In this document: positions 2,135-15,394 of the stretch, piece after piece | Layout of the letters: each line of letters opens with the position of its first letter | How positions within the stretch are numbered: the first letter of the stretch is position 1 | NCBI GenBank assembly: GCA_913061125.1 | Contig: CAJXUB010000004.1 | Location: forward strand, 1-64,000 | Direction of reading: 5' to 3' | DNA: 64,000 nucleotides | Source of the DNA: an uncultured Flavobacteriaceae bacterium | Lineage (GTDB): Bacteria; Bacteroidota; Bacteroidia; Flavobacteriales; Flavobacteriaceae | Translations under genes and position numbers: made by a program | Notes under the pieces: model-generated | The model's input: only the letters and a program-made list of their open reading frames with translations | Told to the model about the DNA's origin: nothing | Databases searched by the model: none

Positions 2135-2157
2135 CTCCACGGCATTATTCCCTAAAA
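2135..2157 (+). repeat. 23-bp direct repeat, right copy (putative att site)
   Basis: CTCCACGGCATTATTCCCTAAAA, identical to 263-285; overlaps the stop codon of the HDAC-family gene. Confidence 0.8.
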
Positions 2158-3054
2158 AAATAACTCTTGAGCCAATTCAAAAGTATTGGAATGCGCATTA
2201 ATGATGTCCTTTAAATGAATGGAATACCCCCCTCCCATACTCACTTGAACAGGAATATTGTTGTTTTTACACAATTCCAAAACAAAAAAATCTCGTGCTT
2301 TACACCCTTCCATGGTCAGTCCCAACCGGCCTAGTTTGTCGTTTTTTAAAACATCAACCCCTGCCAAATAAAATATAAAATCAGGTTTAAATGAATCTAC
2401 CAACTTTGGGATGTACTGCGCTAATGCATCCAAATACACCTCATCGGTAGTATCATCTTCCAGAGGCAGGTCAAAATCGCTGTTTTGTTTTTTAAAGGGG
2501 TAATTTTTTTTACCGTGATAAGATACGGTAAAGACCGAATTTTGATGTTCAAAAATGGATGCGGTGCCATCACCTTGATGCACATCCAAATCGACAATCA
2601 TGACTTTTTTTGCTAAGTTATTGTCTATCAAATAATTGGCTGCAATGGCCTGATCGTTGAGCATACAAAATGCGCCTGGTCGATCTCGAAATGCGTGATG
2701 CGTCCCACCTGCAATATTCATCGAAATGCCATACTGTTGGGCAAAATGGGTGTTTTCTATGGTCCCTTGAGCGATGACTCGCTCTCGATGGACCAAGGCC
2801 TCGGATAACGGAAAACCAATCTGTCGGCAGTTTAGTTTATCTAATGACAAATGAATTAAATTATCATAATATTTCTCGCAGTGAGTGGATAGCAAATGGG
2901 ATTTTTCAATAGGTGAAGGCGAAAAAAAATTGTTTTGATTGCAGATATTTTTCCTCAGCAATTGTTCTGGCAACAACTCGTATTTTTCCATAGGAAATCT
3001 GTGCCCAATTTTAAGCTGATGTTTATAGATGGGATCAAAGGCAATTTTCAACAT
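2152..3054 (-). CDS. Histone deacetylase family protein (AcuC/HDAC-like)
   Basis: 'NIAGGTHHAFRDRPGAFCMLNDQAIAANYL', 'VMIVDLDVHQGDGTASIF' and 'SMGGGYS' are HDAC-superfamily metal/active-site motifs. Confidence 0.93.
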   Translation of the reverse strand: MLKIAFDPIYKHQLKIGHRFPMEKYELLPEQLLRKNICNQNNFFSPSPIEKSHLLSTHCEKYYDNLIHLSLDKLNCRQIGFPLSEALVHRERVIAQGTIENTHFAQQYGISMNIAGGTHHAFRDRPGAFCMLNDQAIAANYLIDNNLAKKVMIVDLDVHQGDGTASIFEHQNSVFTVSYHGKKNYPFKKQNSDFDLPLEDDTTDEVYLDALAQYIPKLVDSFKPDFIFYLAGVDVLKNDKLGRLGLTMEGCKARDFFVLELCKNNNIPVQVSMGGGYSIHLKDIINAHSNTFELAQELFF

Positions 3055-3766: not shown

Positions 3767-6700
3767 TCAAAGTTTTATAAAGCGTTTGGTAACAGAGCCG
3801 TTTAGGTCCACAACAGAAATTAGATACACCCCACCGCTAAGCCCACTAACATCTATTTGATTGGTTCCAAAAGCAGCCAAAACACGTTGCCCGATTATGG
3901 TACTAATTTCAATGTACTTCCCGAACATATCACCCGAAATAAACAACATGTTAGTAACAGGATTCGGATAAACTACAAGATCTGTGGCAGGGTCTGTTGG
4001 TGTCGGTGGCGGGGGTTGATTGGTATTTATGGCATTTGGACTTCCATTGGTATTGACACAATCCCAATGTTCAGCCAATGTATTATCGAGATCGGGTGCT
4101 ATTAATTCTATGGAATTTCCTGTTTCGAAAGCACAAGTTGGCCAAGGGGCTTCGTTGGTATAGTGAACCTCATCGACCAAGTTGTCAAACCTGTTGTATA
4201 GTCGTACTGAATCATTTGAACCAAATCCGAATCCTAATTCGCCCATAAATGGAATTCCTGGAAAGGCACTACTAAATCGAATTTGATCTTTAACCAATAC
4301 TAAATAAGCATTGGCTTCTATTTGAGTCCCTTCTGGAATCACAAAGGTATTATTGCCGTTGGAATCTCTTACCCGCCAATTGGACACATCTATAGCGGCA
4401 GACGTGGTGTTGTATAACTCGATCCAATCACCAGGATCAAAGGCATCGGAACTGCTGTAGTTGATTTCATTGATAATCACTTGAGATTTTACCGTTATTG
4501 GAGCGCTATCTCGGTACATGCAGATCTCAAGAGCGTCTTTAACAACGATATTATACGTTCCAACAGCTAGATTGGAAAAAACATTATCGGACTCAAAATT
4601 TTGACCCCCATCAATGCTGTACATGTACGGCCCTTGACCAGAAGTTGGTATAACCGTAATTGTTCCATCTGCAGACACAACCGATGATACTTGAGTAGTT
4701 ATGATATCGGCTGTGGTGAACGTACAGGCGTCAACAAAAACAGTTTCGACATAGGTGCATCCAGTTACACCCTGAATGTATATTTGATAAGTTCCTGGAG
4801 ATAAATTATCAAATGTGTTGGTCTCTACTAGGGTTTGACCGCCGTCAATGCTGTATTGAAATGGACTTAATCCTGATGCTGTGTAAATGGCGATGCTGGC
4901 ATCATTAGCCGTGGAAGAGCTGGCGTTAGTTACATCAATGTTGGCAGTAATTTCACATCCTGTCCCGTCTGGGCAAAATACATTTTGTGTTTTACTGTCA
5001 AATTCCCCATTATTAAAAACCAGATTATTCCCTGAGGAATCGTTAACTAAAATGCTTCCTTCCCCAAATCCACAACAAATCCCATCGCCGTAAGAATCGT
5101 AAACATATAACGTAAAACAAGAGCTATAATCCACACAAATATCCTGAGTATAAACATCAGTTCCAAAATCCAAAGCACCGTCAGCCACGATGGTATTGGT
5201 GCCCTCATCCATGAGCTTCCAAGAGGTTTCTTGAGGGTAGTTATCGGCATTGATAATGAGTGTAATGATATCATAGTCCGAGTCCAAATCAGACGTAATG
5301 GAAGCTGAATTATTTGATAAATTCTGGTCTGGCTGGGCATTAACGGCCGTTACGTTTAGAACGATGTTATTATTTGGCAATAAGTTATCTGACACGGCGA
5401 CGGTAATGATTTCTTGGTTTTGAAAAGGAATATTAACATCAACAGAAATATTATCTACAATTGCTCCATTGGCTACTACTTCTATAGAAACTTCGTTCAG
5501 GGTTAGTTGACCTTTGTTGGTTAGTTCTGTTGTTAATTCCAACTCGTCATTGCAAACCGCATTGACTTCTAAAATATCAATAGCACCGTCCAACTCGTAT
5601 AATTTTGTAACAGTTTCCGTTAAAGTATTATTGTTATCATATTCGTCTTGTGGATGACTCAGGTTGACGGCAATGGTATAATCGCCAGTAGTTGACATGT
5701 CTATAGGCAAAGTGAATTGGAATTCACCTTCACTGAACGGTTCGATATTTTCGGTAATCAAAACCGTTTGAATCGAAATATCATTAACGAGTAATTCCAG
5801 TTCAAAATTGGTCATATCATTTAGCCCATAGTTGGCAATTGTGGCGCTAACCAATTCGTTGGTTCCCAAACTGGATGAAGATTCTGGTTGGGTTATGGCC
5901 TTTACGCCCAAGTCATAATCTCCCTTTATTTCTGCCCAAAAGGAAACCCACGGTCGAGCCTGTTTAATAGCCAATTGGTCTTCAGCAGTCACTTTATATT
6001 CGATATCCATTCCAAATCCTTCTGCACCTTCAACATCATAAAGAAGGGCAAATTCGTTGTGGATGACCGATAGAAAATCGCGCATCTGATCCAAATATTC
6101 TTGATCCATCACCAATTCACCTGGATTAACCAAATTGGATAATCTCAAAACCAAATAACCGCCGCCTTGATCTGGGTTTTCATACAACAAGATTTCCTCT
6201 GGAACAGAATTCGGATCTGGATTGGTAATTAGAGATTCTCCGACTTGGGTATTTAGATAAAATGTGCCTTGGGTTTCGTAAATGGGATCAATGCTAATAC
6301 CCACACCGTTGGATTTTTCGTTTTGAAAATTGGGGTGGCACAACACGCCCATAGCCGCTACAAAATGATCAATTCGGTAAAAATCTCGCTCTTCGTATGC
6401 TCTAAAATTCCACATACTGGCGTACACTTGCTTGATGGATTTTGAAATATGACCTTCTTCAGGGTATTGTGTTTTTGAGGTGTATAATCCTGCACCGCTA
6501 AATCCTGGTAAATCTTCATTATTTGTGCTGGAACGGCACCTAACATTAGTGCCTTCGGGAAAGGCATCGTGCATGGCTTGTAGGTCGTCCATAATCCACT
6601 GTGGCATTGGGGCGTTTCTAATATCTCGTCTAAAGTCTTTAAGCCGTTCCGTTCTAAAATTGATATCATTCCGAAAGGTGGGATTGTCAATCATGACCTG

Positions 6701-8146
6701 AGCTTCTTCATAGAAATTATTATATTTCATAAACTCGTCGTAATAATAAAATGGGATTCCAAATCCGTCTGGTATGGTTCCCTCTGGAAACTCAAACGTT
6801 CGCATGGTGGCCACATTGGAGCACTTGGCTCCAAAGGCATCGGACATGCTAAAATTGATGTCATCCAAAGGCATAATCTCTGTAATGCTTAAATTTCGTA
6901 TTGGAATTTGTGGCTCTGTGGGGCGTAAATCCTCGTACCAGGCATTAACTTCTTCTAAAGTGGCTTCTCTTATTTCGTAACGATCGGCCTCTACTTTATA
7001 ATAAATATAGCCATTGAGTAGGCCGGCTATTGCAGGGTTATCTAAAGGATTTGCAATATAAGCGTTTGGGACATTATCTTGTATTGCCCTGAGATTTACG
7101 TGCGATAGAGGGGTTTGAATGACCGAGGTAATTATTCCACCAACTCGAGGTAACGAATTGGGCAAAGCGTCGTACAAAACGATATCTCGACTTCCGGGGG
7201 TTTCATTGAGGTCTTGCATGTGTTTAAAAAAACCAAAACCCTCTGCTTCATGAAATGGAATGTAGTTGACTTCAGCAAAAACATCCGTTTCTAAAACGAC
7301 GTCAAATCTGGAGTCTTCAAATTCATCGGCGTAGTTATTGATGTGGTTGTCTTCATCGGCCTGACCGATGAAGTGATTCATATTGTTTTGAAGAAAGGGC
7401 ATACTAGCAACTAAAAGCTCATAGGTTCGTTGTGTGGCTTCAAAATCATAAGCATCTCCAAAAGAGAAATTAAAGGAATAGGTTCCGATGGTTCCATTGG
7501 GAAGGATTTCGTTGGGGTTGAAAACAATCTCCCCAGAGCTGTCGTCTCCAGTAACCGACGCCCCTATTCCACCCCAAAAACTGGCGTGAATAACATAGGT
7601 ATTACTATTGATAAAATAGACCTTTGGTTGTGGTGTATCACGGTCTAAAATTCCGAACTTAACATACAATTGATCGTCTAAAAAAGGAGCCCATCCTACA
7701 TTGTTTATTGTAGCCAAATTCATGAAAGTATCCGCATCAGGAATTGAAGTTGTACCATCTACAAAATCAATAGACTCTGCAAAATTGAAAGGCGCATCAG
7801 TGGGCATGTTATTAAACTCCGTGAGGTCGTCAATACCATCGCCATCATAATCTTCTGGAGCCGAAATGTCGTGGGCGGTTATGCTGTATTGTTCCAAAGG
7901 ATACGCTCCCGCAGGTTCAGTAATTATCATGGTGCCATCTACTCCCATTGTCATAGAAACAGCCCAATTGAAAGTTGGACTGTGTTGTGCATGCAAAATA
8001 TAATATTTATCAGATTGACCTTGTATGGAAAGTTGCACTTGACCCAAGCCATTTACGGAATAATTGTCTATCGGTACCGGCTGAGCAGTGCTGAGATTAT
8101 GAAGTGAAATAAAAAAAATAAGGGACAGGTAAATCCTATATATCAT
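3767..8146 (-). CDS. Secreted multidomain protein: PEP/pyruvate-binding (PPDK N-terminal, ATP-grasp) domain, CARDB-like and SprB-like repeats, lamin-tail domain, T9SS type A sorting domain
   Basis: Signal peptide MIYRIYLSLIFFISLHNLSTAQ; 'VGGIITSVIQTPLSHVNLRAIQDNVPNAYIANP' (phosphohistidine-swivel-like); 'DAFGAKCSNVATMR...VRCRSSTNNEDLPGFSGAGLYTSKTQ...VYASMWNFRAYEERDFYRID...AIKQARPWV' (PPDK_N ATP-grasp); 'PFQYSIDGGQT...FDNLSPGTYQIYIQGVTGC' (SprB-like); 'VIINEINYSSSDAFDPGDWIELYNTTSAAIDVSNW' (lamin-tail); C-term 'VVYPNPVTNMLFISG...GGVYLISVVDLNGSVTKRFIKL' (T9SS type A). Confidence 0.92.
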   Translation of the reverse strand: MIYRIYLSLIFFISLHNLSTAQPVPIDNYSVNGLGQVQLSIQGQSDKYYILHAQHSPTFNWAVSMTMGVDGTMIITEPAGAYPLEQYSITAHDISAPEDYDGDGIDDLTEFNNMPTDAPFNFAESIDFVDGTTSIPDADTFMNLATINNVGWAPFLDDQLYVKFGILDRDTPQPKVYFINSNTYVIHASFWGGIGASVTGDDSSGEIVFNPNEILPNGTIGTYSFNFSFGDAYDFEATQRTYELLVASMPFLQNNMNHFIGQADEDNHINNYADEFEDSRFDVVLETDVFAEVNYIPFHEAEGFGFFKHMQDLNETPGSRDIVLYDALPNSLPRVGGIITSVIQTPLSHVNLRAIQDNVPNAYIANPLDNPAIAGLLNGYIYYKVEADRYEIREATLEEVNAWYEDLRPTEPQIPIRNLSITEIMPLDDINFSMSDAFGAKCSNVATMRTFEFPEGTIPDGFGIPFYYYDEFMKYNNFYEEAQVMIDNPTFRNDINFRTERLKDFRRDIRNAPMPQWIMDDLQAMHDAFPEGTNVRCRSSTNNEDLPGFSGAGLYTSKTQYPEEGHISKSIKQVYASMWNFRAYEERDFYRIDHFVAAMGVLCHPNFQNEKSNGVGISIDPIYETQGTFYLNTQVGESLITNPDPNSVPEEILLYENPDQGGGYLVLRLSNLVNPGELVMDQEYLDQMRDFLSVIHNEFALLYDVEGAEGFGMDIEYKVTAEDQLAIKQARPWVSFWAEIKGDYDLGVKAITQPESSSSLGTNELVSATIANYGLNDMTNFELELLVNDISIQTVLITENIEPFSEGEFQFTLPIDMSTTGDYTIAVNLSHPQDEYDNNNTLTETVTKLYELDGAIDILEVNAVCNDELELTTELTNKGQLTLNEVSIEVVANGAIVDNISVDVNIPFQNQEIITVAVSDNLLPNNNIVLNVTAVNAQPDQNLSNNSASITSDLDSDYDIITLIINADNYPQETSWKLMDEGTNTIVADGALDFGTDVYTQDICVDYSSCFTLYVYDSYGDGICCGFGEGSILVNDSSGNNLVFNNGEFDSKTQNVFCPDGTGCEITANIDVTNASSSTANDASIAIYTASGLSPFQYSIDGGQTLVETNTFDNLSPGTYQIYIQGVTGCTYVETVFVDACTFTTADIITTQVSSVVSADGTITVIPTSGQGPYMYSIDGGQNFESDNVFSNLAVGTYNIVVKDALEICMYRDSAPITVKSQVIINEINYSSSDAFDPGDWIELYNTTSAAIDVSNWRVRDSNGNNTFVIPEGTQIEANAYLVLVKDQIRFSSAFPGIPFMGELGFGFGSNDSVRLYNRFDNLVDEVHYTNEAPWPTCAFETGNSIELIAPDLDNTLAEHWDCVNTNGSPNAINTNQPPPPTPTDPATDLVVYPNPVTNMLFISGDMFGKYIEISTIIGQRVLAAFGTNQIDVSGLSGGVYLISVVDLNGSVTKRFIKL

Positions 8147-8260: not shown

Positions 8261-8791
8261 TCAAGGCTTGCAATCAAATTCGGAATGATACAGGAGAAGT
8301 TTAGCTTTATTGTTGTGAATTACAACTTGGTAAATTCGATCGTAAATATCCAAATCAAATGCTCCAATATCATCGCCAACCAAAAGACCTGCCAAAACCC
8401 CGGTGGTATTGCTATGACCAACCACCAAAGCATTTTGTTTCTTTTCTATCAAATGTTTAGAAAAATCAAAAAGAGCTGCAGGGTTATATTGCACCACACC
8501 AAGCCCTTTGGAATCCGCCGTTGGCTGGGCAGTATTTATGGTACGGATGAAATTTGTAGAATAAACAACATCAAGATTAACAGCACTAAGAAAATGACTC
8601 AAATGTTCCGATCGCTGTTGGCCACAATCCGACAAAGGCGGATCGGAACGACGGTTGAGTGAATCTTCTTTTTCGGAATGCCGTACCAAATAAATCGTAA
8701 ATATGTCGTCTGGATCTTGAGCAAAAACAACGTTACTCGAAGTGCAACCCAGCATCAAAAAAACGGAAATAAGACTTAATTTTTTCATCAT
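8261..8791 (-). CDS. Histidine phosphatase family protein (SixA/PGM-like), predicted lipoprotein
   Basis: 'IYLVRHSEKE', 'ALVVGHSNTTGVLAGLL'; signal MMKKLSLISVFLMLGCTSS. Confidence 0.88.
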   Translation of the reverse strand: MMKKLSLISVFLMLGCTSSNVVFAQDPDDIFTIYLVRHSEKEDSLNRRSDPPLSDCGQQRSEHLSHFLSAVNLDVVYSTNFIRTINTAQPTADSKGLGVVQYNPAALFDFSKHLIEKKQNALVVGHSNTTGVLAGLLVGDDIGAFDLDIYDRIYQVVIHNNKAKLLLYHSEFDCKP

Positions 8792-12426: not shown

Positions 12427-13560
12427 TTACATTCCGCCCCATCCTGTCAATTCAATGATTTTATGAAAAACCTCTGTGTTTTCATAAACGCCATTGAACA
12501 ATTCGGCGCCAGGGCCAAAAGCAAAAACAGGTACCAGTGCAGCTGAATGCCCTTTTGTGGAAAATTTGGGCTCCAATCTTGAGTAGCTGCTATACACTTT
12601 GCCCTCTTTGTTAATATAATTTTCACCTGCCAATGTAAAACCACCGGTTTCATGATCTGCAGTCACAACTACTAAAGTTTCGCCGTCTTTCTCAGCAAAA
12701 TCCAACACCTTACCTATGGTTTCGTCGAAATCTATAAGTTCCGTTATAAGATAATCTGAAAAGTTGTCGTGGCCCGCCCAATCGATTTGAGATCCTTCTG
12801 ACATCAAAAAAAATGGCGCATCATTTTGGTGTAAAAATTGAATGGCTTGAACGGTGGCCTGAGGTAAAAAATCTCCTCTAGATTCTAATATTTTAGGCAT
12901 ACCGTCATGGGCTAACAAATAGCCCTGCTTGGTGTTTGATTTTACAGCATCTAAAGGTTGTAAACCAAGAGTGTCTATATTAAAATTATTGGACTCTAAT
13001 TCGCTCAAAAGATTAATCCCATCAGAGCGATCTTTAAAAAATTTTAAACCGCCTCCAGCGAAAAAATCAACCTTGGATCGAGGCATTTGTTGAGCTATTT
13101 CCTCCTGCATATCTCGATCTAAAACATGGGCATAAAAACTGGCTGGTGTGGCATGTGTGATGGAAGAGGTGGCAACCAGCCCAATTTTAACAGCATGCTG
13201 TGCAGCAAGCTCTGTGAGGTTAGTGAGTTCTGATTGATCGTCTCGAACTCCAATGGCTCCATTGTAAGTTTTTTCGCCGCAAGAAAAAGCCGTTCCACTG
13301 GCTGCAGAATCAGTAATGTCTTGCTCTGAAGATGATGTTTTTATTAATCCAATATGTTGAAACCGAGCATAGTTTACTGGAGATTTTTTGTAATAGAAAG
13401 CGGCAGAAATTTGAGACAAACCTGTACCGTCACCAATGAGTAAAATAACATTTTTTGGGGTTAGGCTTCCGTTGGTTTTTTGCTTAGGCGCAGTGCAGTC
13501 GTAAAGAAAACACAAAACGACAAAAAAACAACTGTAAAAAAATTTATTCATAGGATGCAA
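12427..13560 (-). CDS. Alkaline phosphatase
   Basis: 'VILLIGDGTGLSQISAA', 'DITDSAASGTAFSCGEKTYNGAIGV' (nucleophile Ser motif), 'MSEGSQIDWAGHDN', 'VTADHETGG'. Confidence 0.95.
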   Translation of the reverse strand: MHPMNKFFYSCFFVVLCFLYDCTAPKQKTNGSLTPKNVILLIGDGTGLSQISAAFYYKKSPVNYARFQHIGLIKTSSSEQDITDSAASGTAFSCGEKTYNGAIGVRDDQSELTNLTELAAQHAVKIGLVATSSITHATPASFYAHVLDRDMQEEIAQQMPRSKVDFFAGGGLKFFKDRSDGINLLSELESNNFNIDTLGLQPLDAVKSNTKQGYLLAHDGMPKILESRGDFLPQATVQAIQFLHQNDAPFFLMSEGSQIDWAGHDNFSDYLITELIDFDETIGKVLDFAEKDGETLVVVTADHETGGFTLAGENYINKEGKVYSSYSRLEPKFSTKGHSAALVPVFAFGPGAELFNGVYENTEVFHKIIELTGWGGM

Positions 13561-13654: not shown

Positions 13655-15394
13655 ATGTACACAAGCAAGTGTTTTTTATTAAAACTAAAAAAGGGGATTT
13701 TTAGCATCAGTTTAATGGTGTCATTAAATTTCATATCTCATGCTCAGCTAGGCTTTTGTAGTGGAAGTTACGGGGATCCTATTTTTGCCGAAACTTTTGG
13801 GTCAGGCGTTGGAAATGCATCATTACCCCCCGGAACAACCACCTATTTATACGATGCAGGATTTCCAAACGACGGGTTTTATACCGTAAGAAACGGTTCT
13901 TTTGGGAATGCTTACGATTGGCAAGAAATCGAAGATCATACACCAGGGGACGATAATGGACGATTTTTAATTATTAATGCTGGATTCACACCTGGAGAAT
14001 TTTACAAAACAACCATTACCGGGTTATGTGAATTTACGACCTACGAATTTTCGGCGTGGTTAATCAATTTACTCAAGGTTCCGGGCTTTTGTGTGGACTT
14101 GGGTATTGAAATTCCTATCAATGTAAAATTTCAAATTTGGGACAGCACTGAGTCTACCCTCTTAGCTAGTGGTGATACGGGTGATATCTATGCCACAGCT
14201 GCACCCAATTGGGGCCAATTTGCCCTGGTGTTTCAAACGGCTGAAAATCAAGAATCTGTAGTCCTGAAAATGCTAAATAACGGAGCTGGCGGGTGTGGAA
14301 ACGATTTGGCCATTGACGATATTGAATTTAAATCCTGCGGCGATACAGTTTCGGTTACCGACGAAAACAACAACACAACTGTTTCTGTATGTGAGAGTGA
14401 AACTCCCTTTAGTACCACCTTAACAGCCTCACCCGATTTTTCTGTTTTCAATTCACATTTTTACCAATGGCAAGAAAGTGCAGATGGAATTTTATGGCAA
14501 AATATTAATGGGGAAACCAATCAAAGCATATCCGTTTCAATAGCCTCCCAGCGGTCCTACAGAACCAAAGTTGCGGAATTTGCAGGAAATTTAGAAAATG
14601 AACAATGCGTCTTGTTTTCTGATGTTTTTCAGGCATTTATCAACCCTAACCCCTCTGCACCCATCAGCAACGGCGATGTTGCATTAGATTGTTCTGTTGG
14701 TCAAGCCACATTATCGGTAGCCACTGCAGGGGGTACGTTTGTTAATTGGTATGAGTCACCGTCTGGAGGTAACCCATTGGAAATCAATAGCTTAACATAC
14801 GAAGCTTCAACCCCTGAAACTTATTATGCCGAAGCCATTGACTCTGAGACAGGCTGTGTATCAACCACACGCACTGCGGTAAGTGCCCTCAATAACACGC
14901 CTGCACCAACTGCAGAATCGCCACAAAATTATTGCAATTCAGTCATTCTTCAGAATATTGAAATTGAGGGGACTAACATACAATTTTTTGAAGATGCAGC
15001 AGGAAGTTTGCTTTTGAATTCTTCAACTGAAATTTCGGAAACTACAACTGTTTATGCCTCACAAACTATTGATGATTGTGAGAGTTTTGGATTGCTTGAA
15101 ATACAAATTATTGTTGAGAATTGCGATGTTATTATTCCACAAGCCATTTCTCCAAACAACGATGGATTAAACGACGTTTTAAACATTCAAAATCTATACG
15201 ATGTTCATTTGAACCACAGTTTAAAGATATTCAACCGCTATGGAACCTGCATCTTTGAGGGCAACAATTCCAACCCTTGGAAAGGTCTAAACAATTCGGG
15301 CGGGTTGGTTCCAGTGGGTACCTATTTTTACGTCTTAGAACTAAACAACGACCAACAAGACGTATTTACTGGATGGGTGTATTGTAATTATTAA
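13655..15394 (+). CDS. T9SS type B sorting / gliding-motility-associated C-terminal domain protein
   Basis: Signal peptide, Ig-like 'GGTFVNWYESPSGGNPL...YEASTPETYYAEAIDSETGC', C-terminal CHU_C 'VIIPQAISPNNDGLNDVLNIQNL...LKIFNRYGTCIFEGNNSNPWKGLNNSGGLVPVGTYFYVLEL'. Confidence 0.92.
   Translation: MYTSKCFLLKLKKGIFSISLMVSLNFISHAQLGFCSGSYGDPIFAETFGSGVGNASLPPGTTTYLYDAGFPNDGFYTVRNGSFGNAYDWQEIEDHTPGDDNGRFLIINAGFTPGEFYKTTITGLCEFTTYEFSAWLINLLKVPGFCVDLGIEIPINVKFQIWDSTESTLLASGDTGDIYATAAPNWGQFALVFQTAENQESVVLKMLNNGAGGCGNDLAIDDIEFKSCGDTVSVTDENNNTTVSVCESETPFSTTLTASPDFSVFNSHFYQWQESADGILWQNINGETNQSISVSIASQRSYRTKVAEFAGNLENEQCVLFSDVFQAFINPNPSAPISNGDVALDCSVGQATLSVATAGGTFVNWYESPSGGNPLEINSLTYEASTPETYYAEAIDSETGCVSTTRTAVSALNNTPAPTAESPQNYCNSVILQNIEIEGTNIQFFEDAAGSLLLNSSTEISETTTVYASQTIDDCESFGLLEIQIIVENCDVIIPQAISPNNDGLNDVLNIQNLYDVHLNHSLKIFNRYGTCIFEGNNSNPWKGLNNSGGLVPVGTYFYVLELNNDQQDVFTGWVYCNY

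Follow-up and report, generated by a model that had tools for sequence, protein, structure and literature searches.

The window considered here is the whole analysed stretch of 64,000 nucleotides (positions 1 to 64,000, forward strand) of contig CAJXUB010000004.1 from an uncultured Flavobacteriaceae bacterium (assembly GCA_913061125.1). On its minus strand, an open reading frame (ORF) at 3767..8146 codes for a protein of 1459 amino acids (aa), and the best explanation of this gene, to which we assign a probability of about 0.62, is that it specifies an exported, probably surface-attached and catalytically competent dikinase with the domain layout of the glucan, water dikinases (GWD), paired with an exported phosphatase in a network marked by the membrane protein DUF4956 (DUF, domain of unknown function). 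A preliminary description of this DNA had proposed a GWD-like ATP-grasp enzyme with a type IX secretion system (T9SS) export signal at this position. Its observation is confirmed, as the ORF and all of the quoted peptides and motifs are present and the domains are found in the order claimed, and its interpretation is partly supported; what escaped it were the dedicated exported histidine phosphatase of the adjacent gene and the tie with DUF4956.

Catalytic core of the predicted dikinase

The core of the protein consists of two domains (all features of the dikinase gene given here lie on the minus strand). The first is a phosphohistidine (pHis, swivel-type) domain at aa 301-405 (6932..7246), delineated from conservation, the GWD1_pHisD profile and hhalign comparisons, which contains H349 within the motif QTPLSHV; this histidine, whose codon is at 7100..7102, is the residue predicted to be phosphorylated and it is invariant in three alignments (A1, A3 and A5). 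The second is a PPDK_N ATP-grasp domain at aa 437-732 (5951..6838), for which the Pfam scan gave a significant match (E 4.4e-21, 75.9 bits against a cut-off of 27) and in which K441, R538, E716, Q729 and R731 are intact. These residues and H349 are invariant in 37 close relatives and also in 17 diverse relatives that are 24-86% identical to the window protein, and the invariant residues align in HMMER comparisons with residues of phosphoenolpyruvate (PEP) synthase, viz. conserved Lys and Arg in its ATP-binding domain and Glu, Gln and Arg close to the end of that domain. The retention of the SHV histidine was a claim of the preliminary description that holds, and of the computable observations which it named as counting against its proposal (no PPDK_N match, or loss of the ATP-binding residues or the histidine) none was made. 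Such conservation suggests that the protein would act as a dikinase. It could also be supposed that the ATP-grasp and swivel domains form a catalytically silent scaffold serving for binding or adhesion, as the CARDB, SprB-like and lamin-tail modules found in the same protein resemble parts of adhesins and extracellular ATP is scarce. However, neither the catalytic residues nor the histidine vary among relatives down to 24% identity, and in comparison with a same-genus genome the adhesin-like tail has diverged far more than the core (nonsynonymous divergence, dN, of 0.27 against 0.08, with synonymous divergence, dS, saturated), which indicates strong purifying selection on the catalytic core. 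Given the invariant active site, a dead scaffold is judged to be very unlikely.

The order of these domains differentiates the protein from PEP synthase (PpsA) and pyruvate phosphate dikinase (PPDK). The latter enzymes also have a swivel pHis domain and a PPDK_N domain with the K, R, E, Q and R residues named above, but they are cytoplasmic, and their ATP-grasp domain stands at the front, with a PEP/pyruvate-binding TIM barrel further on. In the present family, the pHis segment precedes the ATP-grasp domain in all 17 diverse aligned relatives, in accordance with the GWD-type order proposed earlier for the window protein, in which the Pfam scan found no PEP-binding barrel and whose best match to an NCBIfam equivalog is 58.5 bits against a cut-off of 598. 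Based on the domain order and the missing barrel, its interpretation as a PEP synthase is ruled out. A pHis domain placed before a C-terminal ATP-grasp domain, the lack of a PEP-binding barrel and a catalytic histidine of the SH[VL] type are features shared with the plant and algal alpha-glucan, water dikinases (GWD/PWD). Further, the GWD1_pHisD profile gave weak matches to over half of the family members tested (9/17 at E 5 or below, best E 1e-4, the window protein not being among those listed), all of them under the curated cut-off where bit scores were shown, and the PEP-utilizers profile matched one of the 17 (E 0.18). The domain order and the GWD1_pHisD profile thus support a core of the GWD type. 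However, the window protein differs from GWD/PWD in being exported from a bacterium, in its unrelated N-domain and in its tail of CARDB, lamin tail (LTD) and T9SS domains, and no Pfam match to the starch-binding domains CBM45 or CBM20 was seen in it or in the relatives scanned. Due to the lack of a starch-binding domain and the GWD1_pHisD scores under cut-off, the core should be described as GWD-type, short of the features that the name GWD requires.

The assignment of the pHis segment was also examined by hhalign. The family segment matches the swivel domain of Bacteroidota dikinases of ~970 aa with E 6.7e-11 (0.41 for the reversed control), and the swivel domain of these dikinases in turn matches that of PEP synthase at 5e-7, histidine on histidine. 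As direct comparison of the family segment with two PEP synthase swivel sequences gave E 0.43, its homology to the PEP synthase swivel rests on the intermediate family. Such proteins of ~970-1000 aa (L112 (G373), L166-L172 and similar) make up a second, distant Bacteroidota group that also shows a GWD-like order, viz. a long N-terminal region, a swivel domain with SHVQLLARNLGIPNA and then PPDK_N; a literature search turned up nothing on these proteins.

A first AlphaFold model, based on 37 close sequences, was poor (predicted local distance difference test, pLDDT, of 52) and Foldseek pointed to the ATP-grasp domain alone. The second model, of aa 120-737, reached a pLDDT of 75 and a predicted template modelling score (pTM) of 0.62, with most of the ATP-grasp part above 70, and the comparison of a model with PPDK, recommended earlier, gave Foldseek matches to rifampin phosphotransferase (Rph; E 2e-13), PEP synthase (3.5e-13) and PPDK (1.7e-7); HpeI, an ATP-grasp protein of Rhodococcus, was also matched. 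If the matches to Rph, the top structural match of the ATP-grasp domain, and to HpeI are taken as a guide to function, then the protein could be an exported phosphotransferase that inactivates small molecules (antibiotics or phenolics) outside the cell, as such enzymes share the passage of phosphate from ATP through a histidine to an acceptor. However, the structural match covers the shared ATP-grasp domain only, and Rph, which is cytoplasmic and has an antibiotic as acceptor, shows its own order of ATP-grasp, acceptor domain and pHis, whereas the order here is GWD-like. In addition, a core that hardly varies across many families, together with a dedicated phosphatase, points to a housekeeping function and not to resistance, and a role of this kind appears improbable.

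Forms of the family and evidence for export

Relatives were obtained from a scan of the genome contigs in one collection, which yielded 142 loci, of which the best 80, with 57-81% identity over the local match, were kept. All shapes of the family have the N-domain, the pHis domain and the ATP-grasp domain in common. The N-domain (aa 119-300; 7247..7792) is specific to the family and is recognised in alignments, including those of the ~630-aa forms, by the motif KxYFINSxxYxxHxxF; the Pfam scan gave no match to it, its pLDDT in the second model is mostly 70-90, and it is possibly the domain that binds the acceptor. The long forms (~1240-1580 aa) carry in addition CARDB and a T9SS domain, in the 838-aa forms (L083) the T9SS domain comes directly after the ATP-grasp domain, some of the forms of 700-850 aa have an N-terminal CarboxypepD_reg-like domain (L075 paralogue), and the compact ~630-aa forms stop right after the ATP-grasp domain. 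A beta-rich N-terminal region (aa 22-118; 7793..8083), seen in the alignment and the first model, is limited to the long and 838-aa forms. In the window protein, the tail comprises a CARDB module (aa 745-829; 5660..5914; Pfam E 3e-6), an SprB-like repeat (aa 1158-1183; 4598..4675), an LTD (aa 1220-1330; 4157..4489; Pfam E 7e-19) and the T9SS type A sorting domain (aa 1392-1457; 3776..3973; Pfam E 1e-8). Of the fusion partners named in the preliminary description, CARDB and the LTD are therefore well supported, while the SprB repeat scores under the curated cut-off in the window protein (22.1 against 28 bits) and exceeds it in the relatives L013 and L010. CARDB is present in all five other long forms scanned (under the curated cut-off in L010). 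The lamin-tail fusion should not be regarded as a general feature, as the LTD is absent from L013, L077 and L070 and is lineage-specific.

These differences are also reflected in sequence conservation. For the long forms, median identity to the window protein amounts to 0.79 in the N-domain and to 0.83 in both the pHis and the ATP-grasp domain, but falls to 0.46 in the CARDB region and to 0.14 in that of the lamin tail. With the tail variable, and absent from the 838-aa and 630-aa forms, the view that the LTD/CARDB tail is an essential part is ruled out. The 142 related loci and the purifying selection on the core indicate that the architecture of the dikinase is not due to chance. According to their record titles the kept loci are from Bacteroidota except for L061 (PBNL01000048.1), titled as a Euryarchaeota archaeon, which contains a long-form dikinase, 75% identical to that of the window over the best segment, together with the phosphatase; it is probably a mis-binned Bacteroidota contig. 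Two metagenome-assembled genomes contain two long forms each, viz. a divergent pair in PKDP01 (L040 and L071) and near-identical copies in PBJR01 (L018 and L020), the latter due to duplication or mixed strains. A search of viral contigs with the diverse alignment found no relatives, and tblastn against plasmids gave remote PPDK_N matches only.

With regard to export, the window protein begins with a Sec signal peptide (aa 1-21; 8084..8146), its sorting domain matches TIGR04183 with 34.9 bits against a cut-off of 23, and SprA of the T9SS translocon is encoded in the same genome. The export signals claimed earlier are thus present, and by these sequence features the protein qualifies as a T9SS cargo of a T9SS-bearing genome. 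Of 111 family members, 106 were found to have a hydrophobic N-terminus, although the criterion was loose and 260 of 497 control ORFs also satisfy it; of the five exceptions, three are apparently truncated or mis-started ORFs and two have plausible signal peptides just below the threshold. All full-length long forms scanned have a T9SS domain, and the compact forms, judged by eye, carry signal peptides, lipoboxes or N-terminal anchors. Export is, on these predicted signals, a property of the whole dikinase family, and the window protein is likely to be located at the cell surface. The other dikinases in the superfamily are, to our knowledge, found in the cytoplasm or in plastids.

The upstream phosphatase and the association with DUF4956

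Upstream of the dikinase gene and on the same strand, separated by 114 intergenic bases in which a scan found no terminator-like site, is a gene (8261..8791, minus strand) for an exported histidine phosphatase of 176 aa (His_Phos_1; PF00300, E 2.8e-13). The PF00300 match is above cut-off and the catalytic RH, R and H of branch-1 histidine phosphatases are present; R37, H38, R83 and H126, as well as the cysteines C56 and C174, are invariant in 58 homologues. The protein shares with the SixA-type and branch-1 phosphatases these RHx...R...H residues and a small single domain, but it differs in being exported, in its invariant cysteine pair and in reaching no curated equivalog cut-off (20.8 bits for the SixA profile TIGR00249 against 74.5; E 2.7e-4). 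It is present in 60 of the 80 loci, in comparison to three or fewer for every other window neighbour, and of 57 loci scored for its position, 53 have it upstream and on the strand of the dikinase, with a median gap of 128 bases. In the other four (L063, L064, L066 and L070) it is found on the other side of the dikinase, which indicates that the linkage has outlasted rearrangement. Several of the loci without the phosphatase end at contig ends. In a search of 60 genomes, the phosphatase subfamily was detected in all eight genomes with long dikinases (E 1e-66 or better), at positions corresponding to the adjacent gene, and the other 52 genomes, inclusive of 24 with other dikinase forms, gave no match better than 1e-37. 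These observations suggest that the dikinase and the phosphatase work as a functional pair. Both are retained in a genome of 1.8 Mb (99% complete), where they are the sole PPDK_N protein and the only PF00300 gene found, and their retention in a small genome of a marine type suggests an important role.

The pairing can also be interpreted as a means of scavenging extracellular phosphorus, in which the dikinase would split dissolved ATP into AMP, inorganic phosphate (Pi) and the phosphorylated enzyme histidine, and the phosphatase would hydrolyse the phosphohistidine, so that together they would hydrolyse ATP in two steps, to the benefit of a marine oligotroph and with no separate acceptor. In favour of this are the export and genetic linkage of the two proteins, the weak resemblance (below cut-off, as noted) of the phosphatase to SixA, a phosphohistidine phosphatase, and a nearby gene for a PhoA-type alkaline phosphatase (12427..13560, minus strand). 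However, the latter gene is near the dikinase in just three of 80 loci (L001, L002 and L005), simpler ecto-nucleotidases suffice for hydrolysing ATP, the N-domain of ~180 aa is conserved in nearly all forms, the 630-aa and 838-aa forms lack a dedicated phosphatase, and the link to DUF4956, to the kinase CotH and to the polyphosphate polymerase VTC would be left unexplained. Scavenging is therefore unlikely. Other genes in the window code for a histone-deacetylase-family protein (2152..3054, minus strand) and a CHU_C-type secreted Ig-like protein (13655..15394, plus strand).

The link to DUF4956 was seen in 60 genomes, 32 with and 28 without the dikinase; the p-values ignore phylogeny, and the figure from within one family is the safer one. 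DUF4956 is present in 30/32 of the dikinase genomes and 7/28 of the others (Fisher p 2.7e-8), and within the family of the window's genome in 11/13 with the dikinase and 2/20 without it (p 2.6e-5). CotH (27/32 against 10/28) and VTC (21/32 against 6/28) show a similar tendency. VTC genes occur within 6 kb of 28 of the 41 DUF4956 genes in these genomes and CotH near 13. Compact dikinases adjoin DUF4956 in six genomes (L115, L116 and L136, convergent; L132 and L134, same strand; and L181, with a VTC - DUF4956 - dikinase cluster), DUF4956 stands beside the dikinase in four of the five dikinase genomes without CotH, and in L174 the dikinase adjoins a CotH-LTD-T9SS protein. A literature search found no function for DUF4956; in Gram-positive bacteria, according to a passage in one published study (PMC7112168), CotH, a polyphosphate polymerase and DUF4956 occur jointly next to gene clusters for the pel exopolysaccharide. 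The window's genome has a single DUF4956 gene (C33:2845-4184; L142), without a VTC partner and followed by a DUF2490 gene, and its sole CotH protein (C15; L143:1770-4946) ends, like the dikinase, in an LTD and a T9SS domain, which lends indirect support to the connection with a CotH/lamin-tail surface guessed at earlier. Downstream of the CotH gene are, by eye, apparent nucleotide-sugar dehydrogenase, epimerase and dehydratase genes. The best reading of these results is that the exported dikinase belongs to a DUF4956/CotH/VTC phosphorylation network. The CotH kinases that occur with VTC and DUF4956 are likewise exported and ATP-dependent, although their protein-kinase-like fold is unrelated to that of the dikinase.

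Proposed mechanism and its significance

In the mechanism that we favour, the ATP-grasp domain would bind ATP, the mobile pHis domain would be phosphorylated at H349, AMP and Pi being released, and H349 would hand its phosphate on to an acceptor that the conserved N-domain keeps in place. The neighbouring phosphatase would then take phosphate off either the product or the phosphohistidine, and DUF4956 may help in supplying the phosphoryl donor, its role as a donor route being put forward purely as a hypothesis. Our guess for the acceptor is a glycan of the cell surface or the extracellular space, as both the GWD-like pHis domain and the location of CotH, VTC and DUF4956 near exopolysaccharide genes in other bacteria speak for it. 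The main alternative is that the enzyme phosphorylates a surface or secreted protein, as CotH does, with all else remaining the same. The co-occurrence of the dikinase with CotH and DUF4956 and the LTD and T9SS tail common to it and the CotH protein of this genome are in keeping with a protein acceptor. However, we know of no dikinase of this fold with another protein as its main acceptor and the GWD-like pHis domain points to sugar, and a protein acceptor is rather doubtful.

Several observations weigh against the explanation of this gene as a competent, paired and networked exported dikinase. The pHis part of the second model has a pLDDT below 50, so that the swivel geometry is unsupported by the model, and the Pfam scans detected no carbohydrate-binding domain. 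An adjacent phosphatase is missing from the most divergent long forms, those of Saprospiraceae, as well as from the forms of 630 aa and 838 aa, and the pairing is thus not universal in the family. The genome comparisons, apart from the one within a family, are uncorrected for phylogeny, and DUF4956 in the window's genome is on contig 33, far from the dikinase. Further, ATP is scarce outside cells and we know of no ATP exporter here, which makes the source of ATP the weakest, and also the most interesting, point of this explanation.

A literature search found no secreted dikinase or exported kinase-phosphatase pair of such kind. ATP-driven enzymes are unexpected outside the membrane, and the pair described here suggests that phosphate is added to and removed from a surface target. 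In its boldest form, which we regard as a long shot of about the same standing as a protein acceptor, Bacteroidota would run on an extracytoplasmic glycan an ATP-driven cycle of phosphorylation by a GWD-type dikinase and dephosphorylation by a histidine phosphatase, with DUF4956 delivering the donor to both the dikinase and CotH, i.e. a cycle outside the cell resembling that of starch phosphorylation. A review from 2026 (PMC12892837) states that no GWD structure has been solved, and the compact relatives of ~630 aa could thus stand in for GWD in structural work. DUF4956 gains from these results a hypothesis for its function, viz. donor supply for exported kinases, and a widespread branch of exported dikinases with intact active sites, a phosphatase of their own and a tie to DUF4956 raises the questions of where extracytoplasmic kinases of Gram-negative bacteria obtain their ATP and what they phosphorylate.

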